DNA from: Gordius sp. MW1
Lineage: Eukaryota; Nematomorpha; Gordioida; Gordea; Gordiidae
Assembly (NCBI GenBank): GCA_964036665.1
Contig: OZ038530.1
Location: forward strand, 1,116,001-1,180,000
Length of the DNA: 64,000 nt
Direction: 5' to 3'
The position numbers were made by a program, and so were the translations under genes. Positions 1 to 64,000 of this stretch are shown in pieces. The stretch's first letter is position 1, and each line of letters begins with the position of its first letter. The notes beneath the pieces are model-generated. The model searched no databases. It saw only the letters and a list, made by a program, of their open reading frames with translations, and was not told where the DNA came from.

Positions 1-660
1 TTCCGTTGTCCTTCCGTTGTCCTTCCGTTGTCCTTCCGTTGTCCTTCCGTTGTACGTCCGTTGTCCGTCTGATGTCATTTTGTTGTCCGTCCGTTGTCCG
101 CCCGTTGTCCATCCGTTGTCCTTCCGTTGTCCGTCTGATGTCATTTTGTTGTCCGTCCGTTGTCCGTCCGTTGTCCGTCCGTTGTCCGTTCGTTGTCCGT
201 CCGTTGTCCGTCTGATGTCCTTTTGTTGTCTGTCCGTTGACCGTTCGTTGTCCGTTCGTTGTCCGTTCGTTGTCCGTCTGATGTCCTTTTGTTGTCCTTC
301 CGTTGTCCGTCCGTTGTCCGTCTGATGTCCGCTCGTTGTCCTTCCGTTGTCCGTCCGTTGTCCGCCCGTTGTCCTTCCGTTGTCCTTCCGTTGTCCGTCC
401 GTTGTCCTTCCGTTGTCCGTCCGTTGTCCGTCTGATGTCCTTTTGTTGTCCGTCCGTTGTCCGTCTGATGTCCTTTTGTTGTCCTTCCGTTGTCCGTCCG
501 TTGTCCGTCTGATGTCCTTCCGTTGTCCATCCGTTGTCCGTCCCTTGTCCATCTGATGTCCTTCCGTTGTCCGTCCGTTGTCCGTCTGATGTCCTTCCGT
601 TGTCCGTCCGTTGTCCGTCCGTTGTCCGTCTGATGTCCTTCCGTTGTCCGTCCGTTGTCC
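1..660 (+). repeat. Satellite array A, 11-bp units, TTGTCCGTCCG orientation
   Basis: This is an uninterrupted run of 11-bp units, cut by the window start. Written in the phase NNNNNTTGTCC the units are mainly GTCCGTTGTCC, TTCCGTTGTCC, GCCCGTTGTCC, GTTCGTTGTCC, GTCTGATGTCC and TTTTGTTGTCC. It carries a rare TTGACC unit near 238-243. The same substitution occurs in reverse complement at about 37928-37933, and base p here pairs with base 38170 minus p there. Array A is therefore an inverted copy of the start of array D. No gene is seen. Confidence 0.97.
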
Positions 661-744
661 ATCAGGAGGCTACAAGTTTGAATCCCGGAGAGTATTCTGT
701 TCTTGTTAATAACATTGATAATATGACTTTTTAGCCGTCCGCTG
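661..744 (+). repeat. R1, tRNA-like (SINE-type) fragment at the left end of S1
   Basis: The segment AGGAGGCTACAAG followed by TTTGAATCCCGG resembles the variable loop and T-arm of a tRNA gene. AGTTTGAATCC at 675-685 matches the Pol III B-box consensus GGTTCGANTCC at 9 of 11 positions. A T5 run at 728-732 could act as a Pol III terminator. The T-stem does not pair well and no A box is seen, because the upstream sequence is satellite. A decayed 3' half of a tRNA-derived SINE is the best guess. It repeats in direct orientation as R2, which lacks a 15-bp stretch (about 699-713). Confidence 0.45.
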
Positions 745-1050
745 AAATTTTCACGAAGCCTATATGGTTGAACAAACAAATTTAAAAAATTTTCAAGTCG
801 AAAAAATTTTTTTTTTCGGAATTCACCTCTGATATCGAAAATTTTCATGAGGCCTATATGGTGTTACAAAAAAATTGAAAAAATTTTGAGGTCGAAAAAA
901 TATTTTCTGAACAAAAAAATTTTTTTTACGGAATTCACTTCTGATATCAAAAATTTTCATGAGGCCTATATGGTTGAACAAAAAAATGGAAAAAAATTTG
1001 AGGTCGAAAAAAATATTTTTTGATAAAAAAAATTTAATAAATTGCATAGC
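745..1050 (+). repeat. Three diverged AT-rich tandem modules of S1
   Basis: Three head-to-tail modules (about 745-836, 837-948 and 949-1050) share the order AAAATTTTCATGAGGCC, TATATGG, an A-rich run, GAGGTCGAAAAA, then GGAATTCAC and CTGATATC. The third ends differently, in AATAAATTGCATAGC. Long A and T runs dominate. The short reading frames here (MKIFDIR... on the minus strand) repeat only because the DNA repeats, and I do not regard them as coding. Confidence 0.85.
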
Positions 1051-1157
1051 ACGGAGGGACGACGGAGGGACGACGGACGGACGACGGACGGACGACGGAG
1101 AGACGACGGAGGGAGGACGGACGGACAACGGAGGGACGACGGACCGTCCGTTGTCCG
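1051..1157 (-). repeat. Reversed mini-array and orientation switch inside S1
   Basis: About eight diverged 11-bp units run in the orientation opposite to the flanking arrays (CGGAGGGACGA and CGGACGGACGA, with GACGAC where the main array has GACAAC). Orientation flips back at a near-perfect palindrome, ACGGACCGTCCGT at 1139-1151, centred on 1145. A short + stretch, GTCCGTTGTCCGTC, leads into R2. The divergence suggests an older satellite relic than the flanking arrays. Confidence 0.85.
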
Positions 1158-1230
1158 TCAGGAGGCAACAAGTTTGAATCCGTGAGAGTATTCTGTTGAT
1201 AATATGACTTTTTGGCCGTCCGCTGGCTAC
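1158..1230 (+). repeat. R2, second tRNA-like fragment at the right end of S1
   Basis: This is a direct repeat of R1. AGTTTGAATCC lies at 1171-1181 and a T5 run at 1209-1213. It then continues GGCCGTCCGCTGGCTAC, where R1 has AGCCGTCCGCTGA. The 15 bp between ATTCTGTT and GATAATATG in R1 is missing here. Satellite resumes immediately after. Confidence 0.6.
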
Positions 1231-1874
1231 GTCCGTTGTCCGTCCGTTGTCCGCCCGTTGTCCGTCTGTTGTCCGTCCGTTGTCCGTCCTTTGTCCGTTC
1301 GTTGTCCGTTCGTTGTCCTTCCGTTGTTCTTCCGTTGTCCTTCCGTTGTCCGTCCGTTGTCCGTCTGATGTCCTTCCGTTGTCCGTCCGTTGTCCGTCCG
1401 TTGTCCGCCCGTTGTCCTTCCGTTGTCCGTCCGTTGTCCTTCCGTTGTCCGTCCGTTGTCCTTCCGTTGTCCGTCCGTTGTCCTTCCGTTGTCCGTCCGT
1501 TGTCCGTCCGTTGTCCGTCTGATGTCCTTTTGTTGTCCTTCCGTTGTCCGTCCGTTGTCCGTCTGATGTCCTTCCGTTGTCCATCCGTTGTCCGTCCCTT
1601 GTCCGTCTGATGTCCTTCCGTTGTCCGTCCGTTGTCCGTCCCTTGTCCGTTTGATGTCCTTCCGTTGTCCGTCCGTTGTCCGTCCGTTGTCCGCCCGTTG
1701 TCCTTCCGTTGTCCTTCCGTTGTCCGTCCGTTGTCCGTCTGATGTCCTTCCGTTGTCCGTCCGTTGTCCGTCCGTTGTCCGTCCGTTGTCCGTCCGTTGT
1801 CCTTCCGTTGTCCGTCCGTTGTCCTTCCGTTGTCCGTCCGTTGTCCGTCTGATGTCCTTTTGTTGTCCGTCCGT

Positions 1875-2720
1875 TGTCCGTCCGTTGTCCGTCCCTTGTC
1901 CGTCTGATGTCCTTTTGTTGTCCGTCCGTTGTCCGTTCGTTGTCCGTTCGTTGTCCGTTCGTTGTCCTTCCGTTGTCCGTCCGTTGTCCGTCTGATGTCC
2001 TTCCGTTGTCCGTCCGTTGTCCGTCCGTTGTCCGCCCGTTGTCCTTCCGTTGTCCGTCCGTTGTCCGTCCGTTGTCCGTCTGATGTCCTTCCGTTGTCCT
2101 TCCGTTGTCCTTCCGTTGTCCTTCCGTTGTCCGTCCGTTGTCCGTCCGTTGTCCTTCCGTTGTCCGTCCGTTGTCCGTCCGTTGTCCTTCCGTTGTCCGT
2201 CAGATGTCCTTTTGTTGTCTGTCCGTTGTCCGTTCGTTGTCCGTTCGTTGTCCGCCCGTTGTCCTTCCGTTGTCCTTCCGTTGTCCGTCCGTTGTCCGTC
2301 CGTTGTCCTTCCGTTGTCCGTCTGATGTCCTTTTGTTGTCTGTCCGTTGTCCGTTCGTTGTCCGTTCGTTGTCCGTCCGTTGTCCGTCCGTTGTCCTTCC
2401 GTTGTCCTTCCGTTGTCCGTCCGTTGTCCGTCTGATGTCATTTTGTTGTCCGTCCGTTGTCCGTCCGTTGTCCGTTCGTTGTCCGTCCGTTGTCCGTCTG
2501 ATGTCCTTTTGTTGTCTATCCGTTGTCCGTTCGTTGTCCGTTCGTTGTCCGTTCGTTGTCCGTTCGTTGTCCGTCTGATGTCCTTTTGTTGTCCTTCCGT
2601 TGTCCGTCCGTTGTCCGTTTGATGTCCTTTTGTTGTCCGTCCGTTGTCCGTCCGTTGTCCGTCCGTTGTCCGTCCGTTGTCCTTCCGTTGTCCGTCTGAT
2701 GTCCTTTTGTTGTCTGTCCG
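1875..2720 (+). repeat. Block alpha copy 1 within array B
   Basis: This string of variant units recurs with almost the same order at about 10926-11770, 14886-15730 and 18736-19580. Markers include the unit runs around GTCAGATGTCC, TTGTCTATCCG and ATGTCATTTTG. Between copies the offsets are multiples of 11 bp. Boundaries are approximate, judged from the order of variant units. Confidence 0.7.
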
Positions 2721-5700
2721 TTGTCCGTTCGTTGTCCGTTCGTTGTCCGTCCGTTGTCCGTCCGTTGTCCTTCCGTTGTCCTTCCGTTGTCCTTCCGTTG
2801 TCCTTCCGTTGTCCGTCCGTTGTCCGTCTGATGTCATTTTGTTGTCCGTCCGTTGTCCGTCCGTTGTCCGTTCGTTGTCCGTCCGTTGTCCGTTCGTTGT
2901 TCGTTCGTTGTCCTTCCGTTGTCCTTCCGTTGTCCGTCCGTTGTCCGTCTGATGTCCTTCCGTTGTCCGTCCGTTGTCCGTCCGTTGTCCGCCCGTTGTC
3001 CTTCCGTTGTCCGTCCGTTGTCCTTCCGTTGTCCTTCCGTTGTCCTTCCGTTGTCCTTCCGTTGTCCGCCCGTTGTCCGCCCGTTGTCCGTCCGTTGTCC
3101 GCCCGTTGTCCTTCCGTTGTCCGCCCATTGTCCGTCCGTTGTCCGTCCGTTGTCCTTTCGTTGTCCGCCCGGTGTCCGTCCGTTGTCCGTCCGTTGTCCG
3201 CCCGTTGTCCTTCCGTTGTCCTTCCGTTGTCCTTCCGTTGTCCGTCCGTTGTCCGTCTGATGTTATTTTGTTGTCCGTCCGTTGTCCGTCTGATGTCCTT
3301 TTGTTGTCCGTCCCTTGTCCGTCTGATGTCCTTTTGTTGTCCGTCCGTTGTCCGTTCGTTGTCCTTCCGTTGTCCGTTCGTTGTCCGTCTGATGTCCTTC
3401 CGTTGTCCGTCCGTTGTCCTTCCGTTGTCCTTCCGTTGTCCTTCCGTTGTCCGTCCGTTGTCCGTCCGTTGTCCTTCCGTTGTCCGTCAGATGTCCTTTT
3501 GTTGTCTGTCCGTTGTCCGTTCGTTGTCCGTTCGTTGTCCGCCCGTTGTCCTTCCGTTGTCCTTCCGTTGTCCGTCCGTTGTCCGTCCCTTGTCCGTCTG
3601 ATGTCCTTCCGTTGTCCGTCTGATGTCCTTCCGTTGTCCGTCCGTTGTCCGTCCGTTGTCCGCCCGTTGTCTATCCGTTGTCCTTCCGTTGTCCGTCCGT
3701 TGTCCGTCTGATGTCTATCCGTTGTCCGTCCGTTGTCCGTCCGTTGTCCGTCCGTTGTCCGTCCGTTGTCCTTCCGTTGTCCGTCCGTTGTCCGTCTGAT
3801 GTCCTTTTGTTGTCCGTCCGTTGTCCGTCTGTTGTCCGTCCGTTGTCCGTTCGTTGTCCGTCCCTTGTCCGTCTGATGTCCTTTTGTTGTCCGTCCGTTG
3901 TCCGTCTGTTGTCCGTCCGTTGTCCGTCCTTTGTCCGTTCGTTGTCCGTTAGTTGTCCTTCCGTTGTCCTTCCGTTGTCCGTCCGTTGTCCGTCTGATGT
4001 CCTTCCGTTGTCCGTCCGTTGTCCGTCCGTTGTCCGCCCGTTGTCCTTCCGTTGTCCGTCCGTTGTCCGTCCGTTGTCCGTCTGATGTCCTTCCGTTGTC
4101 CGTCCGTTGTCCTTCCGTTGTCCGTCCGTTGTCCGTCCGTTGTCCGTCCGTTGTCCGCCCGTTGTCCTTCCGTTGTCCTTCCGTTGTCCTTCCGTTGTCC
4201 GTCCGTTGTCCTTCCGTTGTCCGTCCGTTGTCCGTCCGTTGTCCGTCTGATGTCCTTTTGTTGTCCTTCCGTTGTCCGTCCGTTGTCCGTCTGATGTCCT
4301 TCCGTTGTCCATCCGTTGTCCGTCCCTTGTCCGTCTGATGTCCTTCCGTTGTCCGTCCGTTGTCCGTCCCTTGTCCGTCTGATGTCCTTCCGTTGTCCGT
4401 CCGTTGTCCGTCCGTTGTCCGCCCGTTGTCTATCCGTTGTCCTTCCGTTGTCCGTCCGTTGTCCGTCTGATGTCCTTCCGTTGTCCGTCCGTTGTCCGTC
4501 CGTTGTCCGCCCGTTGTCTATCCGTTGTCCTTCCGTTGTCCGTCCGTTGTCCGTCTGATGTCCTTCCGTTGTCCGTCCGTTGTCCGTCCGTTGTCCGTCC
4601 GTTGTCCGTCCGTTGTCCGTCCGTTGTCCTTCCGTTGTCCGTCCGTTGTCCTTCCGTTGTCCGTCCGTTGTCCGTCTGATGTCCTTTTGTTGTCCGTCAG
4701 TTGTCCGTCCGTTGTCCGTTCGTTGTCCGTCCCTTGTCCGTCTGATGTCCTTTTGTTGTCCGCCCGTTGTCCGTCCGTTGTCCGTCCGTTGTCCGTCCGT
4801 TGTCCGTCCGTTGTCCGTCCGTTGTCCTTCCGTTGTCCGTCCGTTGTCCTTCCGTTGTCCGTCCGTTGTCCGTCTGATGTCCTTTTGTTGTCCGTCCGTT
4901 GTCCGTCCGTTGTCCGTCCGTTGTCCGTCTGATGTCCTTCCGTTGTCCATCCGTTGTCCGTCCCTTGTCCGTCTGATGTCCTTCCGTTGTCCGTCCGTTG
5001 TCCGTCCCTTGTCCGTCTGATGTCCTTCCGTTGTCCGTCCGTTGTCCGTCCGTTGTCCTTCCGTTGTCCGTCCGTTGTCCGTCCGTTGTCCTTCCGTTGT
5101 CCGTCAGATGTCCTTTTGTTGTCTGTCCGTTGTCCGTTCGTTGTCCGTTCGTTGTCCTTCCGTTGTCCGTCCGTTGTCCGTCTGATGTCCTTCCGTTGTC
5201 CATCCGTTGTCCGTCCCTTGTCCGTCTGATGTCCTTCCGTTGTCCGTCCGTTGTCCGTCCCTTGTCCGTCTGATGTCCTTCCGTTGTCCGTCCGTTGTCC
5301 GTCCGTTGTCCGCCCGTTGTCTATCCGTTGTCCTTCCGTTGTCCGTCCGTTGTCCGTCTGATGTCCTTCCGTTGTCCGTCCGTTGTCCGTCCGTTGTCCG
5401 TCCGTTGTCCGTCCGTTGTCCGTCCGTTGTCCGTCCGTTGTCCGTCCGTTGTCCGTCTGTTGTCCGTCCGTTGTCCGTTCGTTGTCCGTTCGTTGTCCTT
5501 CCGTTGTCCTTCCGTTGTCCGTCCGTTGTCCGTCCGTTGTCCTTCCGTTGTCCGTCAGATGTCCTTTTGTTGTCTGTCCGTTGTCCGTTCGTTGTCCGTT
5601 CGTTGTCCTTCCGTTGTCCGTCCGTTGTCCGTCTGATGTCCTTCCGTTGTCCATCCGTTGTCCGTCCCTTGTCCGTCTGATGTCCTTCCGTTGTCCGTCC

Positions 5701-6240
5701 GTTGTCCGTCCCTTGTCCGTCTGATGTCCTTCCGTTGTCCGTCCGTTGTCCGTCCGTTGTCCGCCCGTTGTCTATCCGTTGTCCTTCCGTTGTCCGTCCG
5801 TTGTCCGTCTGATGTCCTTCCGTTGTCCGTCCGTTGTCCGTCCGTTGTCCGTCCGTTGTCCGTCCGTTGTCCGTCCGTTGTCCGTCCGTTGTCCGTCCGT
5901 TGTCCGTCCGTTGTCCTTCCGTTGTCCGTCCGTTGTCCTTCCGTTGTCCGTCCGTTGTCCGTCTGATGTCCTTTTGTTGTCCGTCCGTTGTCCGTCCGTT
6001 GTCCGTCCGTTGTCCGTTCGTTGTCCGTCCCTTGTCCGTCTGATGTGCTTTTGTTGTCCGTCCGTTGTCCGTCTGTTGTCCGTCCGTTGTCCTTCCGTTG
6101 TCCGTCCGTTGTCCGTCCGTTGTCCGCCTGTTGTCCTTCCGTTGTCCTTCCGTTGTCTTTCCGTTGTCCTTCCGTTGTCCGTCCGTTGTCCTTCCGTTGT
6201 CCGTCCGTTGTCCGTCCGTTGTCCGTCCGTTGTCCGTCCG

Positions 6241-6270
6241 TTGTCCGTCTGATGTCCTTTGTTGTCCGTC
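6241..6270 (+). other. One-base deletion in array B (10-bp unit)
   Basis: GATGTCCTTTGTTGTCC stands here in place of the usual GATGTCCTTTTGTTGTCC. It is the only break in 11-bp register I found in array B, and it accounts exactly for the array being one base short of 2,704 units. It also explains why the duplication comparing about 3898 with 6339 is offset by 2,441 bp (222 units minus 1). Confidence 0.85.
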
Positions 6271-8164
6271 CGTTGTCCGTCCGTTGTCCGTTCGTTGTCC
6301 GTCCCTTGTCCGTCTGATGTCCTTTTGTTGTCCGTCCGTTGTCCGTCTGTTGTCCGTCCGTTGTCCGTCCTTTGTCCGTTCGTTGTCCGTTCGTTGTCCT
6401 TCCGTTGTCCTTCCGTTGTCCGTCCGTTGTCCGTCTGATGTCCTTCCGTTGTCCGTCCGTTGTCCGTCCGTTGTCCGCCCGTTGTCCTTCCGTTGTCCGT
6501 CCGTTGTCCGTCCGTTGTCCGTCTGATGTCCTTCCGTTGTCCGTCCGTTGTCCTTCCGTTGTCCGTCCGTTGTCCGTCCGTTGTCCGTCCGTTGTCCGCC
6601 CGTTGTCCTTCCGTTGTCCTTCCGTTGTCCTTCCGTTGTCCGTCCGTTGTCCTTCCGTTGTCCGTCCGTTGTCCGTCCGTTGTCCGTCTGATGTCCTTTT
6701 GTTGTCCTTCCGTTGTCCGTCCGTTGTCCGTCTGATGTCCTTCCGTTGTCCATCCGTTGTCCGTCCCTTGTCCGTCTGATGTCCTTCCGTTGTCCGTCCG
6801 TTGTCCTTCCGTTGTCCGTCCCTTGTCCGTCTGATGTCCTTCCGTTGTCCGTCCGTTGTCCTTCCGTTGTCCGTCCGTTGTCCGTCTGATGTCCTTTTGT
6901 TGTCCGTCCGTTGTCCGTCCGTTGTCCGTCCGTTGTCCGTCTGTTGTCCTTCCGTTGTCCGTCCGTTGTCCGTCCGTTGTCCGCCCGTTGTCCTTCCGTT
7001 GTCCTTCCGTTGTCCTTCCGTTGTCCGTCCGTTGTCCTTCCGTTGTCCGTCCGTTGTCCGTCCGTTGTCCGTCTGATGTCCTTTTGTTGTCCTTCCGTTG
7101 TCCGTCCGTTGTCCGTCTGATGTCCTTCCGTTGTCCATCCGTTGTCCGTCCCTTGTCCGTCTGATGTCCTTTTGTTGTCCGTCCGTTGTCCGTCCGTTGT
7201 CCGCCCGTTGTCTATCCGTTGTCCTTCCGTTGTCCGTCCGTTGTCCGTCTGATGTCCTTCCGTTGTCCGTCCGTTGTCCGTCCGTTGTCCGTCCGTTGTC
7301 CGTCCGTTGTCCGTCCGTTGTCCGTCCGTTGTCCGTCCGTTGTCCGTCCGTTGTCCTTCCGTTGTCCGTCCGTTGTCCTTCCGTTGTCCGTCCGTTGTCC
7401 GTCTGATGTCCTTTTGTTGTCCGTCCGTTGTCCGTCCGTTGTCCGTTCGTTGTCCGTCCCTTGTCCGTCTGATGTCCTTTTGTTGTCCGTCCGTTGTCCG
7501 TCTGTTGTCCGTCCGTTGTCCTTCCGTTGTCCGTCCGTTGTCCGTCCGTTGTCCGCCCGTTGTCCTTCCGTTGTCCTTCCGTTGTCTTTCCGTTGTCCTT
7601 CCGTTGTCCGTCCGTTGTCCTTCCGTTGTCCGTCCGTTGTCCGTCTGTTGTCCTTCCGTTGTCCGTCCGTTGTCCGTCCGTTGTCCGCCCGTTGTCCTTC
7701 CGTTGTCCTTCCGTTGTCCTTCCGTTGTCCGTCCGTTGTCCTTCCGTTGTCCGTCCGTTGTCCGTCCGTTGTCCGTCTGATGTCCTTTTGTTGTCCTTCC
7801 GTTGTCCGTCCGTTGTCCGTCTGATGTCCTTCCGTTGTCCATCCGTTGTCCGTCCCTTGTCCGTCTGATGTCCTTTTGTTGTCCGTCCGTTGTCCGTCCG
7901 TTGTCCGCCCGTTGTCTATCCGTTGTCCTTCCGTTGTCCGTCCGTTGTCCGTCTGATGTCCTTCCGTTGTCCGTCCGTTGTCCGTCCGTTGTCCGTCCGT
8001 TGTCCGTCCGTTGTCCGTCCGTTGTCCGTCCGTTGTCCGCCCGTTGTCCGTCCGTTGTCCTTCCGTTGTCCTTCCGTTGTCCGTTCGTTGTCCGTTCGTT
8101 GTCCGTCCGTTGTCCGTCTGATGTCCTTCCGTTGTCCGTCCGTTGTCCGTCCGTTGTCCGCCCG

Positions 8165-11100
8165 TTGTCCTTCCGTTGTCCGTCCGTTGTCCGTCCGTTG
8201 TCCGTCTGATGTCCTTCCGTTGTCCGTCCGTTGTCCTTCCGTTGTCCGTCCGTTGTCCGTCCGTTGTCCTTCCGTTGTCCGTCCGTTGTCCGTCCGTTGT
8301 CCGCCCGTTGTCCTTCCGTTGTCCTTCCGTTGTCCTTCCGTTGTCCGTCCGTTGTCCTTCCGTTGTCCGTCCGTTGTCCGTCCGTTGTCCGTCTGATGTC
8401 CTTTTGTTGTCCTTCCGTTGTCCGTCCGTTGTCCGTCTGATGTCCTTCCGTTGTCCATCCGTTGTCCGTCCCTTGTCCGTCTGATGTCCTTCCGTTGTCT
8501 GTCTGATGTCCTTCCGTTGTCCGTCCGTTGTCCGTCCGTTGTCCGTCCGTTGTCCGTCCGTTGTCCGCCCGTTGTCTATCCGTTGTCCTTCCGTTGTCCG
8601 TCCGTTGTCCGTCTGATGTCCTTCCGTTGTCCGTCCGTTGTCCGTCCGTTGTCCTTCCGTTGTCCGTTCGTTGTCCGTTCGTTGTCCGTCCGTTGTCCGT
8701 CTGATGTCCTTCCGTTGTCCGTCCGTTGTCCGTCCGTTGTCCGCCCGTTGTCCTTCCGTTGTCCGTCCGTTGTCCGTCCGTTGTCCGTCTGATGTCCTTC
8801 CGTTGTCCGTCCGTTGTCCTTCCGTTGTCCGTCCGTTGTCCGTCCGTTGTCCGCCCGTTGTCCTTCCGTTGTCCTTCCGTTGTCCTTCCGTTGTCCGTCC
8901 GTTGTCCTTCCGTTGTCCGTCCGTTGTCCGTCCGTTGTCCGTCTGATGTCCTTTTGTTGTCCTTCCGTTGTCCGTCCGTTGTCCGTCTGATGTCCTTCCG
9001 TTGTCCATCCGTTGTCCGTCCCTTGTCCGTCTGATGTCCTTCCGTTGTCTGTCTGATGTCCTTCCGTTGTCCGTCCGTTGTCCGTCCGTTGTCCGTCCGT
9101 TGTCCGTCCGTTGTCCGCCCGTTGTCTATCCGTTGTCCTTCCGTTGTCCGTCCGTTGTCCGTCTGATGTCCTTCCGTTGTCCGTCCGTTGTCCGTCCGTT
9201 GTCCGTCCGTTGTCCGTCCGTTGTCCGTCCGTTGTCCTTCCGTTGTCCGTCCGTTGTCCTTCCGTTGTCCGTCCGTTGTCCGTCTGATGTCCTTTTGTTG
9301 TCCGTCCGTTGTCCGTCCGTTGTCCGTTCGTTGTCCGTCCCTTGTCCGTCTGATGTCCTTTTGTTGTCCGTCCGTTGTCCGTCTGTTTTCCGTCCGTTGT
9401 CCGTCCTTTGTCCGTTCGTTGTCCGTTCGTTGTCCTTCCGTTGTCCTTCCGTTGTCCTTTTGTTGTCCGTCCGTTGTCCGTCTGATGTCCTTCCGTTGTC
9501 CGTCCGTTGTCCGTCCGTTGTCCGCCCGTTGTCCTTCCGTTGTCCGTCCGTTGTCCGTCCGTTGTCCGTCTGATGTCCTTCCGTTGTCCGTCCGTTGTCC
9601 TTCCGTTGTCCGTCCGTTGTCCGTCCGTTGTCCGCCCGTTGTCCTTCCGTTGTCCTTCCGTTGTCCTTCCGTTGTCCGTCCGTTGTCCTTCCGTTGTCCG
9701 TCCGTTGTCCGTCCGTTTTCCGTCTGATGTCCTTTTGTTGTCCTTCCGTTGTCCGTCCGTTGTCCGTCTGATGTCCTTCCGTTGTCCGTCCGTTGTCCTT
9801 CCGTTGTCCGTCCGTTGTCCGTCCGTTGTCCGCCCGTTGTCCTTCCGTTGTCCTTCCGTTGTCCTTCCGTTGTCCGTCCGTTGTCCTTCCGTTGTCCGTC
9901 CGTTGTCCGTCCGTTGTCCGTCTGATGTCCTTTTGTTGTCCTTCCGTTGTCCGTCCGTTGTCCGTCTGATGTCCTTCCGTTGTCCATCCGTTGTCCGTCC
10001 CTTGTCCGTCTGATGTCCTTTTGTTGTCCGTCCGTTGTCCGTCCGTTGTCCGTTCGTTGTCCGTCCCTTGTCCGTCTGATGTCCTTTTGTTGTCCGTCCG
10101 TTGTCCGTCTGTTGTCCGTCCGTTGTCCGTTCGTTGTCCGTTCGTTGTCCTTCCGTTGTCCTTCCGTTGTCCGTCCGTTGTCCGTCCGTTGTCCTTCCGT
10201 TGTCCGTCAGATGTCCTTTTGTTGTCTGTCCGTTGTCCGTTCGTTGTCCGTTCGTTGTCCTTCCGTTGTCCGTCCGTTGTCCGTCTGATGTCCTTCCGTT
10301 GTCCGTCCGTTGTCCGTCCCTTGTCCGTCTGATGTCCTTCCGTTGTCCGTCCGTTGTCCGTCCGTTGTCCGCCCGTTGTCTATCCGTTGTCCTTCCGTTG
10401 TCCGTCCGTTGTCCGTCTGATGTCCTTCCGTTGTCCGTCCGTTGTCCGTCCGTTGTCCGTCCGTTGTCCGTCCGTTGTCCGTCCGTTGTCCGTCCGTTGT
10501 CCGTCCGTTGTCCTTCCGTTGTCCGTCCGTTGTCCTTCCGTTGTCCGTCCGTTGTCCGTCCGTTGTCCGTTCGTTGTCCGTCCCTTGTCCGTCTGATGTC
10601 CTTTTGTTGTCCGTCCGTTGTCCGTCTGATGTCCTTTTGTTGTCCGTCCGTTGTCCGTCCGTTGTCCGTTCGTTGTCCGTCCCTTGTCCGTCTGATGTCC
10701 TTTTGTTGTCCGTCCGTTGTCCGTCTGTTGTCCGTCCGTTGTCCTTCCGTTGTCCGTCCGTTGTCCGTCCGTTGTCCGTCTGATGTCCTTCCGTTGTCCG
10801 TCCGTTGTCCGTCCGTTGTCCGTCCGTTGTCCGTCCGTTGTCCGTCCGTTGTCCTTCCGTTGTCCGTCCGTTGTCCTTCCGTTGTCCGTCCGTTGTCCGT
10901 CTGATGTCCTTTTGTTGTCCGTCCGTTGTCCGTCCGTTGTCCGTCCCTTGTCCGTCTGATGTCCTTTTGTTGTCCGTCCGTTGTCCGTTCGTTGTCCGTT
11001 CGTTGTCCGTTCGTTGTCCTTCCGTTGTCCGTCCGTTGTCCGTCTGATGTCCTTCCGTTGTCCGTCCGTTGTCCGTCCGTTGTCCGCCCGTTGTCCTTCC

Positions 11101-30640: not shown

Positions 30641-30973
30641 TCCGTCTGATGTCCTTCCGTTGTCCGTCCGTTGTCCGTCCGTTGTCCGTCCGTTGTCCTT
30701 CCGTTGTCCGTCCGTTGTCCGTTTGTTGTCCGTCCGTTGTCCGTCCGTTGTCCGTTCGTTGTCCGTCCCTTGTCCGTCCCTTGTCCTTTTGTTGTCCGTC
30801 CGTTGTCCGTCTGTTGTCCGTCCGTTGTCCGTCCTTTGTCCGCCCGTTGTCCTTCCGTTGTCCTTCCGTTGTCCGTCCGTTGTCCTTCCGTTGTCCGTCA
30901 GATGTCCTTTTGTTGTCCGTCCGTTGTCCGTCCGTTGTCCGTCTGATGTCCTTCCGTTGTCCGTCCGTTGTCC

Positions 30974-50400: not shown

Positions 50401-50469
50401 GCGGACAACGGAAGGACAACGGAAGGACAACGGACGGACAACGGACGGACAACAAAAGGACATCAGACG
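47433..50469 (-). repeat. Satellite array G
   Basis: The span is 3,037 bp, or 276 units plus one base. The same remainder is found in D and I, because all three end at the same T junction. It begins like F and I and ends like D and I. Confidence 0.95.
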
Positions 50470-52891: not shown

Positions 52892-55800
52892 GGACAACGG
52901 ACGGACAACGGAAGGACATCAGACGGACAAGGGACGGACAACGGACGGACAACGGAAGGACATCAGACGGACAACGGACGGACAACGGAAGGACATCAGA
53001 TGGACAAGGGACGGACAACGGATGGACAACGGAAGGACATCAGACGGACAACGGACGGACAACGGAAGGACAACAAAAGGACATCAGACGGACAACGGAC
53101 GGACAACAAAAGGACATCAGACGGACAACGGACGGACAACGGAAGGACAACGGACGGACAACGGAAGGACAACGGAAGGACAACGGGCGGACAACGAACG
53201 GACAACGAACGGACAACGGACGGACAACGGAAGGACAACGGACGGACAACGGAAGGACAACGGAAGGACAACGGGCGGACAACGGACGGACGACGGAAGG
53301 ACAACGGGCGGACATCAGACGGACAACGGACGGACAACGGAAGGACAACAAAAGGACATCAGACGGACAACGAACGGACAACGAACGGACAACGAACGGA
53401 CAACGAACGGACAACGAACGGACAACGGACAGACAACAAAAGGACATCAGACGGACAACGGACGGACAACGAACGGACAACGGACGGACAACGGACGGAC
53501 AACGGACGGACAACAAAATGACATCAGACGGACAACGGACGGACAACGGAAGGACAACGGAAGGACAACGGAAGGACAACGGAAGGACAACGGACGGACA
53601 ACGGACGGACAACGGACGGACAACGGACGGACAACGGAAGGACAACGGAAGGACAACGGGCGGACAACGAACGGACAACAAACGGACAACGGACAGACAA
53701 CAAAAGGACATCTGACGGACAACGGAAGGACAACGGACGGACAACGGACGGACAACGGAAGGACAACGGACGGACATCAGACGGACAACGGAAGGACAAC
53801 GGACGGACAACGGACGGACAACGGAAGGACAACGGAAGGACAACGAACGGACAACGAACGGACAACGGACAGACAACAAAAGGACATCTGACGGACAACG
53901 GAAGGACAACGGACGGACAACGGAAGGACAACGGAAGGACAACGGGCGGACAACGGACGGACAACGGAAGGACATCAGACGGACAACGAACGGACAACGG
54001 AAGGACAACAAAAGGACATCAGACGGACAACGAACGGACAACGGGCGGACAAAGGACGGACAACGGACGGACAACGGACATACAACGGGCGGACAACGGA
54101 CGGACAACGGAAGGACATCAGACGGACAACGGACGGACAACGGACGGACAACGGACGGACAACGGACGGACAACGGGCGGACAACGAAAGGACAACGGAC
54201 GGACAACGAACGGACAACGGGCGGACAACGGAAGGACAACGCAAGGACAACGGACGGACAACGGACGGACAACGGACGGACAACAAAAGGACATCAAACG
54301 GACAACGGACGGACAACGGAAGGACAACAAAAGGACATCAGACGGACAACGAACGGACAACGAACGGACAACGAACGGACAACGAACGGACAACGAACGG
54401 ACAACGGATAGACAACAAAAGGACATCAGACGGACAACGGACGGACAACAAACGGACAACGGACGGACAACGGACGGACAACAAAATGACATCAGACGCA
54501 CAACGGACGGACAACGGAAGGACAACGGAAGGACAACGGAAGGACAACGGACGGACAACGGACAGACAACGAACGGACAACGAACGGACAACGGACAGAC
54601 AACAAAAGGACATCAGACGGACAACGGAAGGACAACGGACGGACAACGGACGGACAACGGAAGGACAACGGAAGGACAACGGGCGGACAACGAACGGACA
54701 ACGAACGGACAACGGACAGACAACAAAAGGACATCTGACGGACAACGGAAGGAAAACGGACGGACAACGGACGGACAACGGAAGGACAACGGACGGACAA
54801 CGGACGGACAACGGAAGGACAACGGAAGGACAACGGAAGGACAACGGATGGACAACGGGCGGACAACGGACGGACAACAAAATGACATCAGACGGACAAC
54901 GGACGTACAACGGAAGGACAACGGAAGGACAACGGAAGGACAACGGAAGGACAACGGAAGGACAACGGGCGGACAACGGACGGACAACGGAAGGACATCA
55001 GACGGACAACGGACGGACAACGGAAGGACAACGGACGGACAACGGAAGGACAACGGAAGGACAACGGGCGGACAACGGACGGACAACGGAAGGACAACGG
55101 AATGACAACGGGCGGACAACGGACGGACAACGGAAGGACATCAGACGGACAACGGACGGACAACGGAAGGACAACAAAAGGACATCAGACGGACAACGAA
55201 CGGACAACGAACGGACAACGAACGGACAACGGAAGGACAACGGGCGGACAACGGACGGACAACGGACGGACAACGGACGGACAACGGACGGACAACGGGC
55301 GGACAACGAAAGGACAACAGACGGACAACGGACGGACAACGGATGGACAACGGACGGACAATGGGCGGACAACGGAAGGACAACGGGCGGACAACGGACG
55401 GACAACGGGCGGACAACGGGCGGACAACGGAGTGACAACGGAAGGACAACGGACGGACAACGGACGGACAACAAAAGGACATCAGACGGACAACGGACGG
55501 ACAACGGAAGGACAACGGAAGGACAACGGAAGGACAACGGGCGGACAACGGACGGACAACGGACGGACAACGGGCGGACAACGGAAGGACAACGGGCGGA
55601 CAACGGACGGACAACGAAAGGACAACGGACGGACAACGGACGGACAACGGACGGACAACGGACGGACAATGGGCGGACAACGGAAGGACAACGGGCGGAC
55701 AACGGGCGGACAACGGAAGGACAACGGAAGGACAACGGAAGGACAACGGGCGGACAACGGACGGACAACGGAAGCACATCAGACGGACAACGGACGGACA

Positions 55801-56654
55801 ACGGAAGGACAACAAACGGACAACGAACGGACAACGAACGGACAACGGGCGGACAACGGAAGGACAACGGAAGGACAACGGACGGACAACGGACGGACAA
55901 CAAAAGGACATCAAACGGACAACGGACGGACAACGGAAGGACAACGGACGGACAACGGAAGGACAACGGAAGGACAACGGGCGGACAACGGACGGACAAC
56001 GGACGGACAACGGGCGGACAACGAAAGAACAACGGACGGACAACGGACGGACAACGGACGGACAACGGACGGACAATGGGCGGACAACGGAAGGACATCA
56101 GACGGACAAGGGACGGACAACGCACGGACAACGGAAGGACATCAGACGGACAACCGACGGACAACGAACGGACAACGGAAGCACAACGGAATGACAACGG
56201 GCGGACAACGGACGGACAACGGAAGCACATCAGACGGACAACGGACGGACAACGGAAGGACAACAAACGGACAACGAACGGACAACGAACGGACAACGGG
56301 CGGACAACGGAAGGACAACGGAAGGACAACGGACGGACAACGGACGGACAACAAAAGGACATCAAACGGACAACGGACGGACAACGGAAGGACAACGGAC
56401 GGACAACGGAAGGACAACGGAAGGACAACGGGCGGACAACGGACGGACAACGGACGGACAACGGGCGGACAACGAAAGGACAACGGACGGACAACGGACG
56501 GACAACGGACGGACAACGGACGGACAATGGGCGGACAACGGAAGGACAACGGGCGGACAACGGACGGACAACGGGCGGACAACGGGCGGACAACGGAAGG
56601 ACAACGGAAGGACAACGGACGGACAACGGACGGACAACAAAAGGACATCAGACG
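52892..56654 (-). repeat. Satellite array I
   Basis: The span is 3,763 bp, or 342 units plus one base, which is 66 units longer than G. The first ~2.2 kb follows G with one extra unit near 54265. The extra material lies around 55150-56100 and resembles part of D (GGAGTGACAACGG at about 55430 against 40499), so I looks like a mosaic of G-like and D-like blocks. Confidence 0.94.
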
Positions 56655-57092
56655 TCTGCAATTCAAAAAAAACATAGAATGTATTATTTATAATAATTCT
56701 TTTTAAGTTTATAAGTAAGATAGTGATTTAATAATTCTAAAAGCATTTATTTATGTTTAGTTACCTATTGATATATTAAAGATAATTTGTAACTTTCAAG
56801 ATTGTAAATTTACGGTTCACAGATGTTAAAAAATGATGTCTATGAATAATTTCCACCTGATCTGTAAAAAAATTTAATTTCGCCAATTTTATATTTTTTA
56901 TTGACAAATTAAAATAATTTATTGAATTTCAATTTTAGCCTAAGCCTATTATTAATATAATTTATGACTTCATGGTGGAACCTCAGTTCATGTTCATGCT
57001 TCCTTCAATCAAAACTCTCCGGGGGGGGGGGGGTATTTGAAACTCCCCGGGGAGGTATTACCCCCCCGGGCTCCCCCCTGAAAGAAACCCTG
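56655..57092 (-). mobile_element. T3, truncated 5' end of the hAT-like element
   Basis: This 438-bp copy has the same breakpoint as T1 and T2 but a G13 tract (57021-57033), like the full-length element. The terminal repeat is 57078-57092, followed by CAACGGGC. Confidence 0.9.
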
Positions 57093-58606
57093 CAACGGGC
57101 GGACAACGGACGGACAACGGACGGACAACGGACGGACAACGGACGGACAACGGACATACAACGGGCGGACAACGTGCGGACAACGGAAGGACAACGGGCG
57201 GACAACGGACGGACAACGGAAGGACATCAGACGGACAACGGACGGACAACGGAAGGACAACAAAAGGACATCAGACGGACAACGAACGGACAACGAACGG
57301 ACAACGAACGGACAACGAACGGACAACGGACAGACAACAAAAGGACATCACACGGTCAACGGACGTACAACGAACGGACAACGGGCGGACAACGGACGGA
57401 CAACGGACGGACAACGAACGGACAACGAACGGACAACGGAAGGACAGGGAAGGACAACGGACGGACAACGGGCGGACTACGGAAGGACAACGGGCGGACA
57501 ACAAAAGGACATCAGACGGACAACGGACGGACAACGAACGGACAACGGACGGACAACGGGCGGACAACAAAAGGACATCAGACGGACAACGGACGGACAA
57601 CGGGCGGACAAAGGACGGACAACGGACGGACAACGGACATACAACGGGCGGACAACGGACGGACAACGGAAGGACATCAGACGGACAACGGACGGACAAC
57701 GGAAGGACAACAAAAGTACATCAGACGGACAACGAACGGACAACGAAAGGACAACGAACGGACAACGAACGGACAACGAACGGACAACGGACGGACAACA
57801 AAAGGACATCAGACGGACAAGGGACGGACAACGGACGGACAACGGACGGACAACAAAAGGACATCAGACGGACAACGGACGGACAACGGAAGGACAACGG
57901 ACGGACAACGGAAGGACAACGGACGGACAACGGACGGACAACGGACGGACAACGGACGGACAACGGACGGACAACGGAAGGACATCAGACGGACAACGGA
58001 CGGACAACGGAAGGACAACGGAAGGACAACGGGCGGACAACGGACGGACAACGGACGGACAACGGAAGGACATCAGACGGACAAGGGACGGACAACGGAC
58101 GGACAACGGAAGGACATCAGACGGACAAGGGACGGACAACGGATGGACAACGGAAGGACATCAGACGGACAACGGACGGACAACGGAAGGACAACAAAAG
58201 GACATCAGACGGACAACGGACGGACAACGGACGGACAACGGAAGGACAACGGACGGACAACGGAAGGACAACGGACGGACAACGGAAGGACAACGGACGG
58301 ACAACGGAAGGACAACGGGCGGACAACGGACGGACAACGGAAGGACAACAAAAGGACATCAGACGGACAACGAACGGACAACGAACGGACAACGAACGGA
58401 CAACGAACGGACAACGAACGGACAACGGACAGACAACAAAAGGACATCAGACGGACAACGGACGGACAACGAACGGACAACGGACGGACAACGGACGGAC
58501 AACGGACGGACAACAAAATGACATCAGACGGACAACGGACGGACAACGGAAGGACAACGGAAGGACAACGGAAGGACAACGGAAGGACAACGGACGGACA
58601 ACGGGC
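57093..58606 (-). repeat. Satellite array J
   Basis: The span is 1,514 bp. It is nearly identical to array L but one unit longer. It differs from E and H at its end, where a block with ATGACATCAGACGG units leads to GGACAACGGGCGTAGCC. Confidence 0.95.
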
Positions 58607-59176
58607 GTAGCCAGCGGACGGCCAAAAAGTCATATTATCAAAAGAATACTCTCACGGATTCAAACTTGTTGCCTCCTGACGGACAACGGACGGTCCGTCG
58701 TCCCTCCGTTGTCCGTCCGTCCTCCCTCCGTCGTCTCTCCGTCGTCCGTCCGTCGTCCCTCCGTCGTCCGTCCGTCGTCCCTCCGTGCTATGCAATTTAT
58801 TAAATTTTTTTTATCAAAAAATATTTTTTTCGACCTCAAATTTTTTTCCATTTTTTTGTTCAACCATATAGGCCTCATGAAAATTTTTGATATCAGAAGT
58901 GAATTCCGTAAAAAAAATTTTTTTGATCAGAAAATATTTTTTTGACCTCAAAATTTTTTCAATTTTTTTGTAACACCATATAGGCCTCATGAAAATTTTC
59001 GATATCAGAGGTGAATTCCGAAAAAAAAAAATTTTTCGACTTGAAAATTTTTTAAATTTTTTTGTTCAACCATATAGGCTTCGTGAAAATTTCAGCGGAC
59101 GGCTAAAAAGTCATATTATCAATGTTATTAACAAGAACAGAATACTCTCCGGGATTCAAACTTGTAGCCTCCTGAT
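58607..59176 (-). repeat. S7, complete 570-bp spacer element
   Basis: It is like S4-S6 except that R2 reads TATCAAAAGAATACT. S8 shares this substitution, and the other copies lack it. Confidence 0.93.
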
Positions 59177-60368
59177 GGACAACGGACGGACAACGGAAGG
59201 ACATCAGACGGACAAGGGACGGACAACGGACGGACAACGGAAGGACATCAGACGGACAACGGACGGACAACGGAAGGACATCAGATGGACAAGGGACGGA
59301 CAACGGATGGACAACGGAAGGACATCAGACGGACAACGGACGGACAACGGAAGGACAACAAAAGGACATCAGACGGACAACGGACGGACAACAAAAGGAC
59401 ATCAGACGGACAACGGACGGACAACGGAAGGACAACGGACGGACAACGGAAGGACAACGGAAGGACAACGGGCGGACAACGAACGGACAACGAACGGACA
59501 ACGGACGGACAACGGAAGGACAACGGACGGACAACGGAAGGACAACGGAAGGACAACGGGCGGACAACGGACGGACGACGGAAGGACAACGGGCGGACAT
59601 CAGACGGACAACGGACGGACAACGGAAGGACAACAAAAGGACATCAGACGGACAACGAACGGACAACGAACGGACAACGAACGGACAACGAACGGACAAC
59701 GAACGGACAACGGACAGACAACAAAAGGACATCAGACGGACAACGGACGGACAACGAACGGACAACGGACGGACAACGGACGGACAACGGACGGACAACA
59801 AAATGACATCAGACGGACAACGGACGGACAACGGAAGGACAACGGAAGGACAACGGAAGGACAACGGAAGGACAACGGACGGACAACGGACGGACAACGG
59901 ACGGACAACGGACGGACAACGGAAGGACAACGGAAGGACAACGGGCGGACAACGAACGGACAACAAACGGACAACGGACAGACAACAAAAGGACATCTGA
60001 CGGACAACGGAAGGACAACGGACGGACAACGGACGGACAACGGAAGGACAACGGACGGACATCAGACGGACAACGGAAGGACAACGGACGGACAACGGAC
60101 GGACAACGGAAGGACAACGGAAGGACAACGAACGGACAACGAACGGACAACGGACAGACAACAAAAGGACATCTGACGGACAACGGAAGGACAACGGACG
60201 GACAACGGAAGGACAACGGAAGGACAACGGGCGGACAACGGACGGACAACGGAAGGACATCAGACGGACAACGAACGGACAACGGAAGGACAACAAAAGG
60301 ACATCAGACGGACAACGAACGGACAACGAACGGACAACGAACGGACGGACAACGGACGGACAACGGGC
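59177..60368 (-). repeat. Satellite array K, interrupted by the hAT insertion
   Basis: The span is 1,192 bp, or 108 units plus 4 bp. The extra 4 bp is a 15-bp unit near 60345 (GAACGGACGGACAACGG), just before the transposon. The final 8 bp, CAACGGGC (60361-60368), are the left target-site duplication. Confidence 0.94.
60361..60368. repeat. Left target-site duplication, CAACGGGC
   Basis: These 8 bp of satellite (the GCCCG-type unit) repeat exactly at the other side of the element. Because the target is itself repetitive, part of the match could arise by chance. The in-register restoration of the array supports a true duplication. Confidence 0.85.
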
Positions 60369-60383
60369 CAGGGTTTCTTTCAG
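60369..60383 (+). repeat. Terminal inverted repeat of hAT, 3' end of transposase side
   Basis: CAGGGTTTCTTTCAG. The inner flank continues ATGCTCC, a G6 run, TATTTTCAACTTCC and a G7 run. The opposite end has a similar G-rich order, giving an imperfect terminal repeat of roughly 40-55 bp. Confidence 0.9.
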
Positions 60384-60561
60384 AAAAAATGCTCCGGGGG
60401 GTATTTTCAACTTCCGGGGGGGTAAAAATTTTTTTAATTGCTAAACCATTTTGTATAATATTTACTAATTTTTATTGGTGATATAAGTGATATATAAATT
60501 GATACATACACGCATAATCATTAAATAAATACATGTAATATTTTAACGGGCAAGTGTTCTT

Positions 60562-60768
60562 TTAAGAAAGTAACCGAATACTTCTTTGTTTTTTAAAGGC
60601 GTACTCCTTCATCGCCATATCTAGATATTCTTCAGTAGGAAGGTCAGCCCCTTCTATAGATATTCTCATACAGTGGTCTAAAGATATCTCCCCTAGCCTG
60701 TTTCTTAATGCAACCATAATTCGGTTCATTGCACTAAAGTAAGGGATAAAACAAGAGTTTTTCTTAAT
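60562..60768 (-). pseudogene. hAT transposase C-terminal (dimerisation) fragment
   Basis: Read on the minus strand from 60738 to the stop at 60562-60564, this frame encodes FSAMNRIMVALRNRL, then MRISIEGADLP, and ends AMKEYAFKKQRSIRLLS. It matches the pattern of the hAT C-terminal dimerisation region (an FSA..RI...RNRL core, then L.R.SIEGP and a basic tail), as seen in ZMYM/ZNF862-like hAT relatives. The upstream residues (IKKNSCFIPY) do not fit the family's usual ERSFS entry, and a stop precedes them at 60769-60771. TTTATCCCTTACTTTAG ending at 60734 looks like a splice acceptor, so the true exon may begin at 60733. The central catalytic region is missing. Confidence 0.72.
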
Positions 60769-60769
60769 T

Positions 60770-60890
60770 CAGTCCCATCTTTACCTATTACAAACAAACA
60801 TATTCATGCCTTATTTATTATTTTATATAAACACAAATACCCATAGTATTCCCCAAACATATCTTCTCGCCTATTTCTAAATCAAAATCA
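60770..60890. other. AT-rich interior of the hAT element
   Basis: This stretch has no sustained frame. A minus-strand stretch near 60829-60880 (GEKICLGNTMGICVYIK) faintly resembles the GED...KDGIYIY peptide encoded by the neighbouring duplicated segment and may be a third, decayed copy. Confidence 0.35.
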
Positions 60891-61258
60891 AATAGATAAA
60901 AAAGATATTTTATCTATATCAGAATTTAAATGCATGACAGATAATTATCATTAGTTATAAACATTATTTTGTGTGTATAAATGTAAATACCATCTTTTTT
61001 ATTTTGACAATCTATGGAATAAACCAGTTTCTCCACAGAATTATCCTCACCTTTTCATAATACATAATTGATTAGACAAAAAAGATCTTTTTTATATGCT
61101 TGCAAGCAAATTATAATTAGTTAATATACATTTAAAATGACCAATATTTTGTTAGTAATATAAATATAAATACCATCCTTTTCATTATAACATTGAATGG
61201 AACAAACCAGAGTTTTTTCTACAGAACAATTATTCATATCTTCACCTGTTGCATAATT
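60891..61258 (-). repeat. Diverged tandem duplication inside the hAT element
   Basis: About 60891-61070 and 61071-61258 are two diverged copies with an offset of 180-195 bp. On the minus strand they read GEDNSVEKLVYSIDCQNKKD then GIYIYTHK, and GEDMNNCSVEKTLVCSIQC then YNEKDGIYIY. Each copy begins with a splice-donor-like sequence: CAG/GTGAAG at 61246/61245 and AAG/GTGAGG at 61051/61050. This could be a duplicated exon end or intron start. Only the right-hand copy is in frame with the start codon. Confidence 0.65.
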
Positions 61259-61357
61259 AAAATTATTCCAAATTAAATCATATTTACCATCCTTTTTATT
61301 AGACTTTTCCTTTTTACTAAAGTAGTGTAAAAGAGTACTTTTATATTTACCAGACAT
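61121..61357 (-). pseudogene. hAT transposase N-terminal fragment, 78 residues
   Basis: The frame opens MSGKYKSTLLHYFSKKEKSN and ends with a stop at 61121-61123. A short basic N-terminus with a T-L-L-x-x-F motif and lysines is typical of hAT/ZMYM-type transposase-like proteins, where a zinc finger usually follows. No zinc finger or catalytic residue is present here. A good donor site (CAG/GTGAAG) at 61246/61245 would end exon 1 after 37 codons plus one base. The candidate acceptor at 60734 needs two bases, so a direct splice would be out of frame. The start lies a few bases inside the point where T1-T3 are broken. Confidence 0.6.
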
Positions 61358-61726
61358 CTATCTGCAATTCAAAAAAAACATAGAATGTATTATTTATAAT
61401 AATTCTTTTTAAGTTTATAAGTAAGATAGTGATTTAATAATTCTAAAAGCATTTATTTATGTTTAGTTACCTATTGATATATTAAAGATAATTTGTAACT
61501 TTCAAGATTGTAAATTTACGGTTCACAGATGTTAAAAAATGATGTCTATGAATAATTTCCACCTGATCTGTAAAAAAATTTAATTTCGCCAATTTTATAT
61601 TTTTTATTGACAAATTAAAATAATTTATTGAATTTCAATTTTAGCCTAAGCCTATTATTAATATAATTTATGACTTCATGGTGGAACCTCAGTTCATGTT
61701 CATGCTTCCTTCAATCAAAACTCTCC

Positions 61727-61783
61727 GGGGGGGGGGGGGTATTTGAAACTCCCCGGGGAGGTATTACCCCCCCGGGCTCCCCC
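61727..61783. repeat. GC-rich subterminal repeats with G13 tract
   Basis: G13, then TATTTGAAA, CTCCCCGGGGAG, GTATTA, CCCCCCCGGG and CTCCCCCC. The palindromic G/C blocks also occur, less regularly, beside the other terminus (60391-60422), as expected of subterminal transposase-binding repeats in hAT elements. The G run is 12 in T1 and T2 and 13 in T3 and here. Confidence 0.6.
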
Positions 61784-61798
61784 CTGAAAGAAACCCTG
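61784..61798 (-). repeat. Terminal inverted repeat of hAT, 5' end
   Basis: CTGAAAGAAACCCTG is the exact reverse complement of 60369-60383. Confidence 0.92.
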
Positions 61799-63301
61799 CA
61801 ACGGGCGGACAACGGACGGACAACGGACGGACAACGGACGGACAACGGACATACAACGGGCGGACAACGTGCGGACAACGGAAGGACAACGGGCGGACAA
61901 CGGACGGACAACGGAAGGACATCAGACGGACAACGGACGGACAACGGAAGGACAACAAAAGGACATCAGACGGACAACGAACGGACAACGAACGGACAAC
62001 GAACGGACAACGAACGGACAACGGACAGACAACAAAAGGACATCACACGGTCAACGGACGTACAACGAACGGACAACGGGCGGACAACGGACGGACAACG
62101 GACGGACAACGAACGGACAACGAACGGACAACGGAAGGACAGGGAAGGACAACGGACGGACAACGGGCGGACTACGGAAGGACAACGGGCGGACAACAAA
62201 AGGACATCAGACGGACAACGGACGGACAACGAACGGACAACGGACGGACAACGGGCGGACAACAAAAGGACATCAGACGGACAACGGACGGACAACGGGC
62301 GGACAAAGGACGGACAACGGACGGACAACGGACATACAACGGGCGGACAACGGACGGACAACGGAAGGACATCAGACGGACAACGGACGGACAACGGAAG
62401 GACAACAAAAGTACATCAGACGGACAACGAACGGACAACGAAAGGACAACGAACGGACAACGAACGGACAACGAACGGACAACGGACGGACAACAAAAGG
62501 ACATCAGACGGACAAGGGACGGACAACGGACGGACAACGGACGGACAACAAAAGGACATCAGACGGACAACGGACGGACAACGGAAGGACAACGGACGGA
62601 CAACGGAAGGACAACGGACGGACAACGGACGGACAACGGACGGACAACGGACGGACAACGGACGGACAACGGAAGGACATCAGACGGACAACGGACGGAC
62701 AACGGAAGGACAACGGAAGGACAACGGGCGGACAACGGACGGACAACGGACGGACAACGGAAGGACATCAGACGGACAAGGGACGGACAACGGACGGACA
62801 ACGGAAGGACATCAGACGGACAAGGGACGGACAACGGATGGACAACGGAAGGACATCAGACGGACAACGGACGGACAACGGAAGGACAACAAAAGGACAT
62901 CAGACGGACAACGGACGGACAACGGACGGACAACGGAAGGACAACGGACGGACAACGGAAGGACAACGGACGGACAACGGAAGGACAACGGACGGACAAC
63001 GGAAGGACAACGGGCGGACAACGGACGGACAACGGAAGGACAACAAAAGGACATCAGACGGACAACGAACGGACAACGAACGGACAACGAACGGACAACG
63101 AACGGACAACGAACGGACAACGGACAGACAACAAAAGGACATCAGACGGACAACGGACGGACAACGAACGGACAACGGACGGACAACGGACGGACAACGG
63201 ACGGACAACAAAATGACATCAGACGGACAACGGACGGACAACGGAAGGACAACGGAAGGACAACGGAAGGACAACGGAAGGACAACGGACGGACAACGGG
63301 C
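61799..63301 (-). repeat. Satellite array L
   Basis: The span is 1,503 bp. It starts with the right target-site duplication CAACGGGC (61799-61806) and carries the same marker units as E, H and J. It matches J with one unit fewer. Confidence 0.95.
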
Positions 63302-63871
63302 GTAGCCAGCGGACGGCCAAAAAGTCATATTATCAAAAGAATACTCTCACGGATTCAAACTTGTTGCCTCCTGACGGACAACGGACGGTCCGTCGTCCCT
63401 CCGTTGTCCGTCCGTCCTCCCTCCGTCGTCTCTCCGTCGTCCGTCCGTCGTCCCTCCGTCGTCCGTCCGTCGTCCCTCCGTGCTATGCAATTTATTAAAT
63501 TTTTTTTATCAAAAAATATTTTTTTCGACCTCAAATTTTTTTCCATTTTTTTGTTCAACCATATAGGCCTCATGAAAATTTTTGATATCAGAAGTGAATT
63601 CCGTAAAAAAAATTTTTTTGATCAGAAAATATTTTTTTGACCTCAAAATTTTTTCAATTTTTTTGTAACACCATATAGGCCTCATGAAAATTTTCGATAT
63701 CAGAGGTGAATTCCGAAAAAAAAAAATTTTTCGACTTGAAAATTTTTTAAATTTTTTTGTTCAACCATATAGGCTTCGTGAAAATTTCAGCGGACGGCTA
63801 AAAAGTCATATTATCAATGTTATTAACAAGAACAGAATACTCTCCGGGATTCAAACTTGTAGCCTCCTGAT
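63302..63871 (-). repeat. S8, complete 570-bp spacer element
   Basis: It has the S structure in reverse and shares TATCAAAAGAATACT with S7. Together with J/L and the G13 tract this makes T3-J-S7 and the hAT-L-S8 segment sister copies. Confidence 0.93.
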
Positions 63872-64000
63872 GGACAACGGACGGACAACGGAAGGACATC
63901 AGACGGACAAGGGACGGACAACGGACGGACAACGGAAGGACATCAGACGGACAACGGACGGACAACGGACGGACAACGGAAGGACATCAGATGGACAAGG
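63872..64000 (-). repeat. Satellite array M, cut by the window end
   Basis: It begins like K but has one extra CGGACGGACAA unit near 63965, then runs off the window. Confidence 0.94.

Follow-up and report, generated by a model that had tools for sequence, protein, structure and literature searches.

DINE-TR1 of Drosophila, a tandem repeat in a Helitron-type element, is said to expand into heterochromatic satellite, and, to our knowledge, the satellites of Nematomorpha have hardly been described. Short arrays within Helitrons expand into satellites, and a rolling-circle model favors 5′ parts (reviewed in PMC12628747). Among the elements described from oysters, several HINEs (nonautonomous Helentrons) carry GTCY, GTCC, or GTCK microsatellites in the left flank (PMC7492417). 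Here, we consider a 64,000-nucleotide stretch lying toward one end of a chromosome in the 212-Mb genome of Gordius sp. MW1 (contig OZ038530.1, C4:1116001-1180000; hereafter, the window), most of which is filled by an 11-bp satellite with the unit GTCCGTTGTCC. The satellite is genuine, and its link to a mobile element can be traced: it probably grew from the short GTCC repeat of a HINE-like element and was homogenized by block duplication, such that the constant core of its unit reflects a founder effect.

An earlier note on this DNA described a giant 11-bp array in which about a dozen pentamers (positions 1 to 5 of the unit) are joined to an almost fixed TTGTCC core (positions 6 to 11). The array and its limited repertoire are borne out: Tandem Repeats Finder (TRF) reports a period of 11 at 1230-30973 and 31364-60366, runs of 20 or more units add up to 5,152 units in the window, and 14 of 119 unit types make up 93.1% of a pooled set of 9,199 units, drawn from the window plus 10 satellite-bearing loci and confined to runs of at least 20 units, with shorter runs dropped. 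The percentages of nonconsensus bases at positions 1 to 11 are 33.4, 8.1, 16.5, 19.2, 2.7, 11.6, 0.3, 0.4, 0.2, 1.2, and 3.7 in the window and 31.5, 7.8, 16.4, 19.2, 3.2, 11.6, 0.3, 0.6, 0.3, 1.5, and 4.4 in the pooled units, with the pooled mean dropping about 5-fold from the pentamer (15.6%) to the core (3.1%). The contrast between the two parts is real, but its border is not the one that the note had drawn. TTGTCC is exact in only 84.3% of window units (83.1% of pooled units) and so falls short of almost fixed. Variation is concentrated in positions 1 to 4 and does not extend across the first five bases, with core position 6 being more variable than pentamer positions 2 and 5; the truly constant stretch consists of positions 7 to 10 plus G5, which is 97% constant.

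The satellite unit also recurs in a dispersed element, a few bases in from its left end. This left end has 8,273 matches at ≤1 mismatch (0 for a reversed-pattern control), and 3,913 exact left ends have GGACAAC 2 to 10 bp away. In HINE orientation, the copies seen begin with TAATTGCTATGCAATTTATGGGCTCG, followed by a T-rich spacer and then by one to three GTCCGTTGTCC units. A 5′ subterminal inverted repeat (subTIR) with an adjacent complementary inverted repeat, TAATTGC-TAT-GCAATT, is present in the copies compared; its 3′ complement, the subTIR CCCATAAATTGCATAGCAAATA, is matched in 21 of 22; and the right end closes with the palindrome GAGGGCCGAAGGCCCGAG. Insertion appears to be between T and T, with a T preceding 18 of 19 left ends and following 8 of 8 right ends (loci L024, L031, and L046 being left out of these flank counts), and all five two-ended copies (800 to 2,160 bp) lack a clear target-site duplication, with A/T runs leaving a few bases ambiguous. 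Judged by its sequence, the dispersed element has the architecture of a HINE. Helitron Rep domains have at least 150 matches in the genome (150 of 150 scored, from 714 candidates), and two loci encode Rep plus a PIF1 helicase.

A composite tandem of element ends, 11-bp units, and shared flanking sequence occurs at C4:1.50 and 1.70 Mb (L024 and L046), near the giant array, and is a plausible intermediate on the way from dispersed element to giant satellite. A single genome holds the element with its one to three units, the composite tandem of element ends, and the giant homogenized array. The source would be the short GTCC-type repeat, one to three GTCCGTTGTCC units just inside one end of the abundant HINE-like element, which may have expanded to roughly 1.6 Mb through rolling-circle or unequal exchange and would then have been homogenized by block duplication. 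Amplified blocks would have carried along a small number of early variants, altered for the most part at positions 1 to 4 and 6, leaving a constant core that needs no protection by a protein. The opposite order of events, in which the satellite came first and a HINE-like element captured a few units and then spread them, is doubtful. Helitron capture of tandem repeats has been described (PMC12628747), and the dispersed copies seen hold mostly consensus-like units, but oyster HINEs have GTCY, GTCC, or GTCK repeats at the same left-flank place (PMC7492417), which suggests that the GTCC repeat has long belonged to the element.

Variants within the satellite are arranged in recurring phrases. Eight common variant types contribute 79.8% of all nonconsensus bases, and neighboring variants are strongly associated (chi-square 9,378, 49 degrees of freedom, 7,708 neighbor pairs): ATCCG is followed by GTCCC 24.7 times as often as expected, GTCTGA by TTTTG 9.8 times, and GTCCC by GTCTGA 9.0 times. 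There are 278 pairs of duplicated blocks with a score of at least 25, the longest spanning 195 units (window 13,615 versus 9,655), and a 106-unit block is common to C8 and C4; across 38 nonoverlapping block pairs (2,882 unit pairs), the base difference is 0.10%. Because variant neighbors are fixed and blocks are duplicated, homogenization appears to copy phrases of units, with old variants being carried along, and the idea that units are copied from a small set was close to right. A fixed higher-order period of the alpha-satellite kind was not found at lags of 1 to 399 units, where unit identity stays near that expected from composition (0.20 and 0.19) and peaks at 0.27 at lag 360 in the plus arm and at 0.24 at lag 184 in the minus arm.

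The other suggestion of the earlier note was that a bound protein keeps the core constant. Under this explanation, a protein would bind TTGTCC/GGACAA along the array and purifying selection would remove core mutations, as with the CENP-B box; if the core is protected, rare recent variants should therefore avoid it. Among 58 rare types (three or fewer copies), 40 could be placed a single step away from one of the common types, with 24 changed in the core and 16 in the pentamer (expected 21.8:18.2, P = 0.53). Corrected for opportunity, the pooled core/pentamer rate ratio is 0.79 (95% confidence interval, 0.39 to 1.59) at this cutoff, 0.79 (0.46 to 1.37) at 10 copies, and 0.89 (0.55 to 1.45) at 30 copies. 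Adding locus L051, for 9,696 units with parents set at 1.1% of units, yields 0.93 (0.46 to 1.87), 0.85, and 0.94 at the same cutoffs, and the window alone yields 1.21, 1.18, and 1.03. Some rare types may be errors of the assembly, and these would weaken any trace of selection; recurrent types with 4 to 30 copies show no stronger sparing of the core. Differences between duplicated blocks that involve types with 30 or fewer copies are also distributed across both parts (11 in the core and 8 in the pentamer, P = 0.82).

Dispersed copies of the unit, counted genome-wide when anchored to an element end and at three of the eleven positions (3, 8, and 10), behave similarly. The consensus pattern has 2,250 matches, copies within C4:1-2,000,000 included. 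Nonconsensus bases at core position 8 have 20 matches, all 20 outside C4:1-2,000,000, and those at core position 10 lie outside this region in 20 of 21 cases; at pentamer position 3, 25 of 99 are outside and 74 inside. The resulting core/pentamer ratio per position is 0.80 (0.49 to 1.32), as opposed to nonconsensus frequencies of 0.6%, 1.5%, and 16.4% at positions 8, 10, and 3 in the satellite. In dispersed copies, away from the satellite, the core does not stand out, and new mutations do not detectably avoid TTGTCC.

Protection of the core by a bound protein is accordingly improbable, although the 5-fold lower mean variation of the core, the 0.3 to 1.5% variation at pooled positions 7 to 10, and the ratios of 0.56 to 0.72 from contig C9 (below) are what it would produce. 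It does not account for a core position 6 that varies 11.6% next to a pentamer position 5 that varies 3.2%, for a core undepleted of rare variants and rare block differences in the pooled units and the window, or for the dispersed copies, where core positions 8 and 10 are about as altered as pentamer position 3. The earlier note had held that equal substitution rates across the 11 positions, with mutation bias allowed for, would refute its reading and had proposed a comparison with the same repeat elsewhere in the genome; for recent change, this is what is seen, the rates of core and pentamer being similar, with wide intervals into which core sparing of up to about 2-fold still fits. It had also supposed that the recurring core would face nearly the same side of the helix. 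DNA has about 10.5 bp per turn, so that an 11-bp step drifts by about 17 degrees per unit, and the argument is weak over long arrays. That mutation bias alone, such as CpG decay, renders the pentamer more variable is highly improbable. In its favor, C4 to T is common (18.2% of pooled units), and C and G sites yield more rare types than A and T sites do. Against it, G1 to T, the most frequent change of all (29.1% of pooled units), is a transversion; position 3, outside CpG, varies 16.4% against 0.6% for G8 and 1.5% for C10; and the similarity of positions 3, 8, and 10 in dispersed copies already disfavors this explanation.

Several observations weigh against an unconstrained satellite derived from the element. 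In C9 alone, the core/pentamer ratio is 0.72, 0.56 (0.30 to 1.03), and 0.59 (0.32 to 1.07) at cutoffs of 3, 10, and 30 copies, a subset that leans toward mild sparing of the core, and the width of the intervals in the full set leaves room for such sparing. All 13 block differences between common types fall in positions 1 to 4, which is expected if blocks exchange old variants but also under constraint. At the two loci examined, no ends matching those of the element flank the Rep/PIF1 genes, so that neither locus yielded an autonomous Helentron partner, and we infer the direction from element to satellite within one genome. There is also a small chance of a more elaborate history, in which a Helentron left-flank GTCC repeat, at a place shared with oyster elements, grew into a subterminal block of megabase size whose orientation flips at copies of the element, with a possible role as centromere or heterochromatin and a weak residual constraint on TGTC of at most about 2-fold. 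An origin from the element's repeat followed by block homogenization implies that a striking constant core can arise in a satellite without selection, and comparing rare with common variants, and satellite with dispersed copies of one unit, provides a simple control.

Three-unit matches to the satellite number 25,003 + 59,780 genome-wide, which, when scaled by the window (2,975 matches per 56,672 bp), correspond to a total of roughly 1.6 Mb. Sampled loci with the satellite lie in the left part of C4, on C9, and at the right end of C8. It takes the place of the TTAGGG telomere at one end each of C4 (left), C9 (left), and C8 (right); C7 has neither at its left end, and the remaining sampled ends of C1 to C9 have TTAGGG. 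The telomere of C9 is present at the end opposite its satellite end. Because these contig ends consist of satellite without telomere, the assembly probably breaks inside the satellite at the ends of C8, C9, and C4 (L042, L016, and L020). Composite element ends at C4:0.16-0.38 and 1.46-1.74 Mb are mostly in opposite orientation, as might result from an inverted duplication of very large size or from a fold-back in the assembly. In a mirrored-spacing test for a giant palindrome over the left end of C4, the counts did not clearly exceed those of shuffles, at 6 (shuffle mean 4.6, maximum 8) and 5 (mean 3.6, maximum 5), among 100 of 318 matches, a set that lacks the copies in the inverted arm of the window. 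By title and start of abstract, no satellite paper was among the full-text matches to four 11-base strings from the array.

Within the window (Table 1), the array keeps its plus orientation until about 30,973 and runs the other way from about 31,365, and it is broken by eleven interruptions of 0.4 to 1.4 kb each (the earlier note mentions neither the inversion nor the interruptions), seven of a near-identical 570-bp type and four of a second type (three of 435 to 436 bp and one of 1,427 bp). In the 570-bp interruption of the plus arm, an AT-rich element core of about 380 bp is followed by inverted and diverged 11-bp units (about 100 bp) and then by a return segment. The orientation of the array flips at a copy of this interruption element, which elsewhere holds the approximately 100 bp of inverted units. 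A fold-back around the 31-kb switch was considered and rejected: a few shared blocks mirror near 31.2 kb, but the majority of the 61 plus/minus block pairs show no such symmetry. The plus array has a single 10-bp phase break, near 6258-6267.

Table 1. Coordinates of the satellite arrays and their interruptions in the window
Feature	Position	Strand	Basis
Satellite array, GTCCGTTGTCC orientation	1..660	+	Unit parse, sequence
570-bp interruption	661..1230	+	Unit parse, MAFFT alignment with six copies of opposite arm
Satellite array	1231..30973	+	Unit parse, TRF
Core copy of 570-bp element, at orientation switch	30974..31364	+	
Satellite array, inverted (GGACAACGGAC on + strand), with interruptions	31365..64000	-	Unit parse, TRF
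570-type interruption, 574 bp	36936..37509	-	Unit parse, MAFFT
Second-type interruption, 435 bp	42394..42828	-	Unit parse, MAFFT
570-type interruption	44269..44838	-	Unit parse, MAFFT
570-type interruption	46863..47432	-	Unit parse, MAFFT
Second-type interruption, 435 bp	50469..50903	-	Unit parse, MAFFT
570-type interruption	52322..52891	-	Unit parse, MAFFT
Second-type interruption, 436 bp	56654..57089	-	Unit parse, MAFFT
570-type interruption	58607..59176	-	Unit parse, MAFFT
Second-type interruption, longer form, 1,427 bp	60369..61795	-	Unit parse, MAFFT
570-type interruption	63302..63871	-	Unit parse, MAFFT

An open frame of 656 amino acids extends through the array (window 61670-63640). With a unit that is free of stops on the GGACAA strand, open frames of this kind are to be expected and do not count as evidence of a gene; units with a stop on this strand number 232 of 9,199. 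Coding constraint on the GGACAA strand was rejected, with stop-creating mutations seen in 10 of 36 cases and others in 68 of 234 (P = 1.0).

Long inverted repeats have been described in the mitochondrial genomes of Nematomorpha (PMC6649704). Contig C12 (14.8 kb), on which cox1, nad1, and other genes can be recognized by eye, is mitochondrial and contains long inverted repeats (L029 and L030), several of them perfect and up to 108 bp in length, some within genes such as nad1. These repeats resemble the ones described and point to a probable horsehair worm rather than to a centipede or a bryozoan.

Among known systems, DINE-TR1 shares with the Gordius satellite a Helitron-borne tandem repeat that would expand into satellite; it involves a different repeat in a different lineage. 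The dispersed element resembles the Cg_HINE elements described from Crassostrea gigas in its left flank, which combines a subTIR, a complementary inverted repeat, and a GTCC-type microsatellite; in its right flank, with a subTIR and a palindrome; and in its T-rich insertion sites without target-site duplication and its link to satellites (PMC7492417). In contrast to the satellite-like arrays described for the oyster elements, which are formed by longer central repeats (PMC7492417), it is the GTCC-type repeat that supplies the unit of the giant array in Gordius. As in the Meloidogyne satellites reported to bear CENP-B-box-like motifs (PMC3694981), one short segment of the unit appears conserved from variant to variant; recent mutations in Gordius are not detectably depleted from the constant part.

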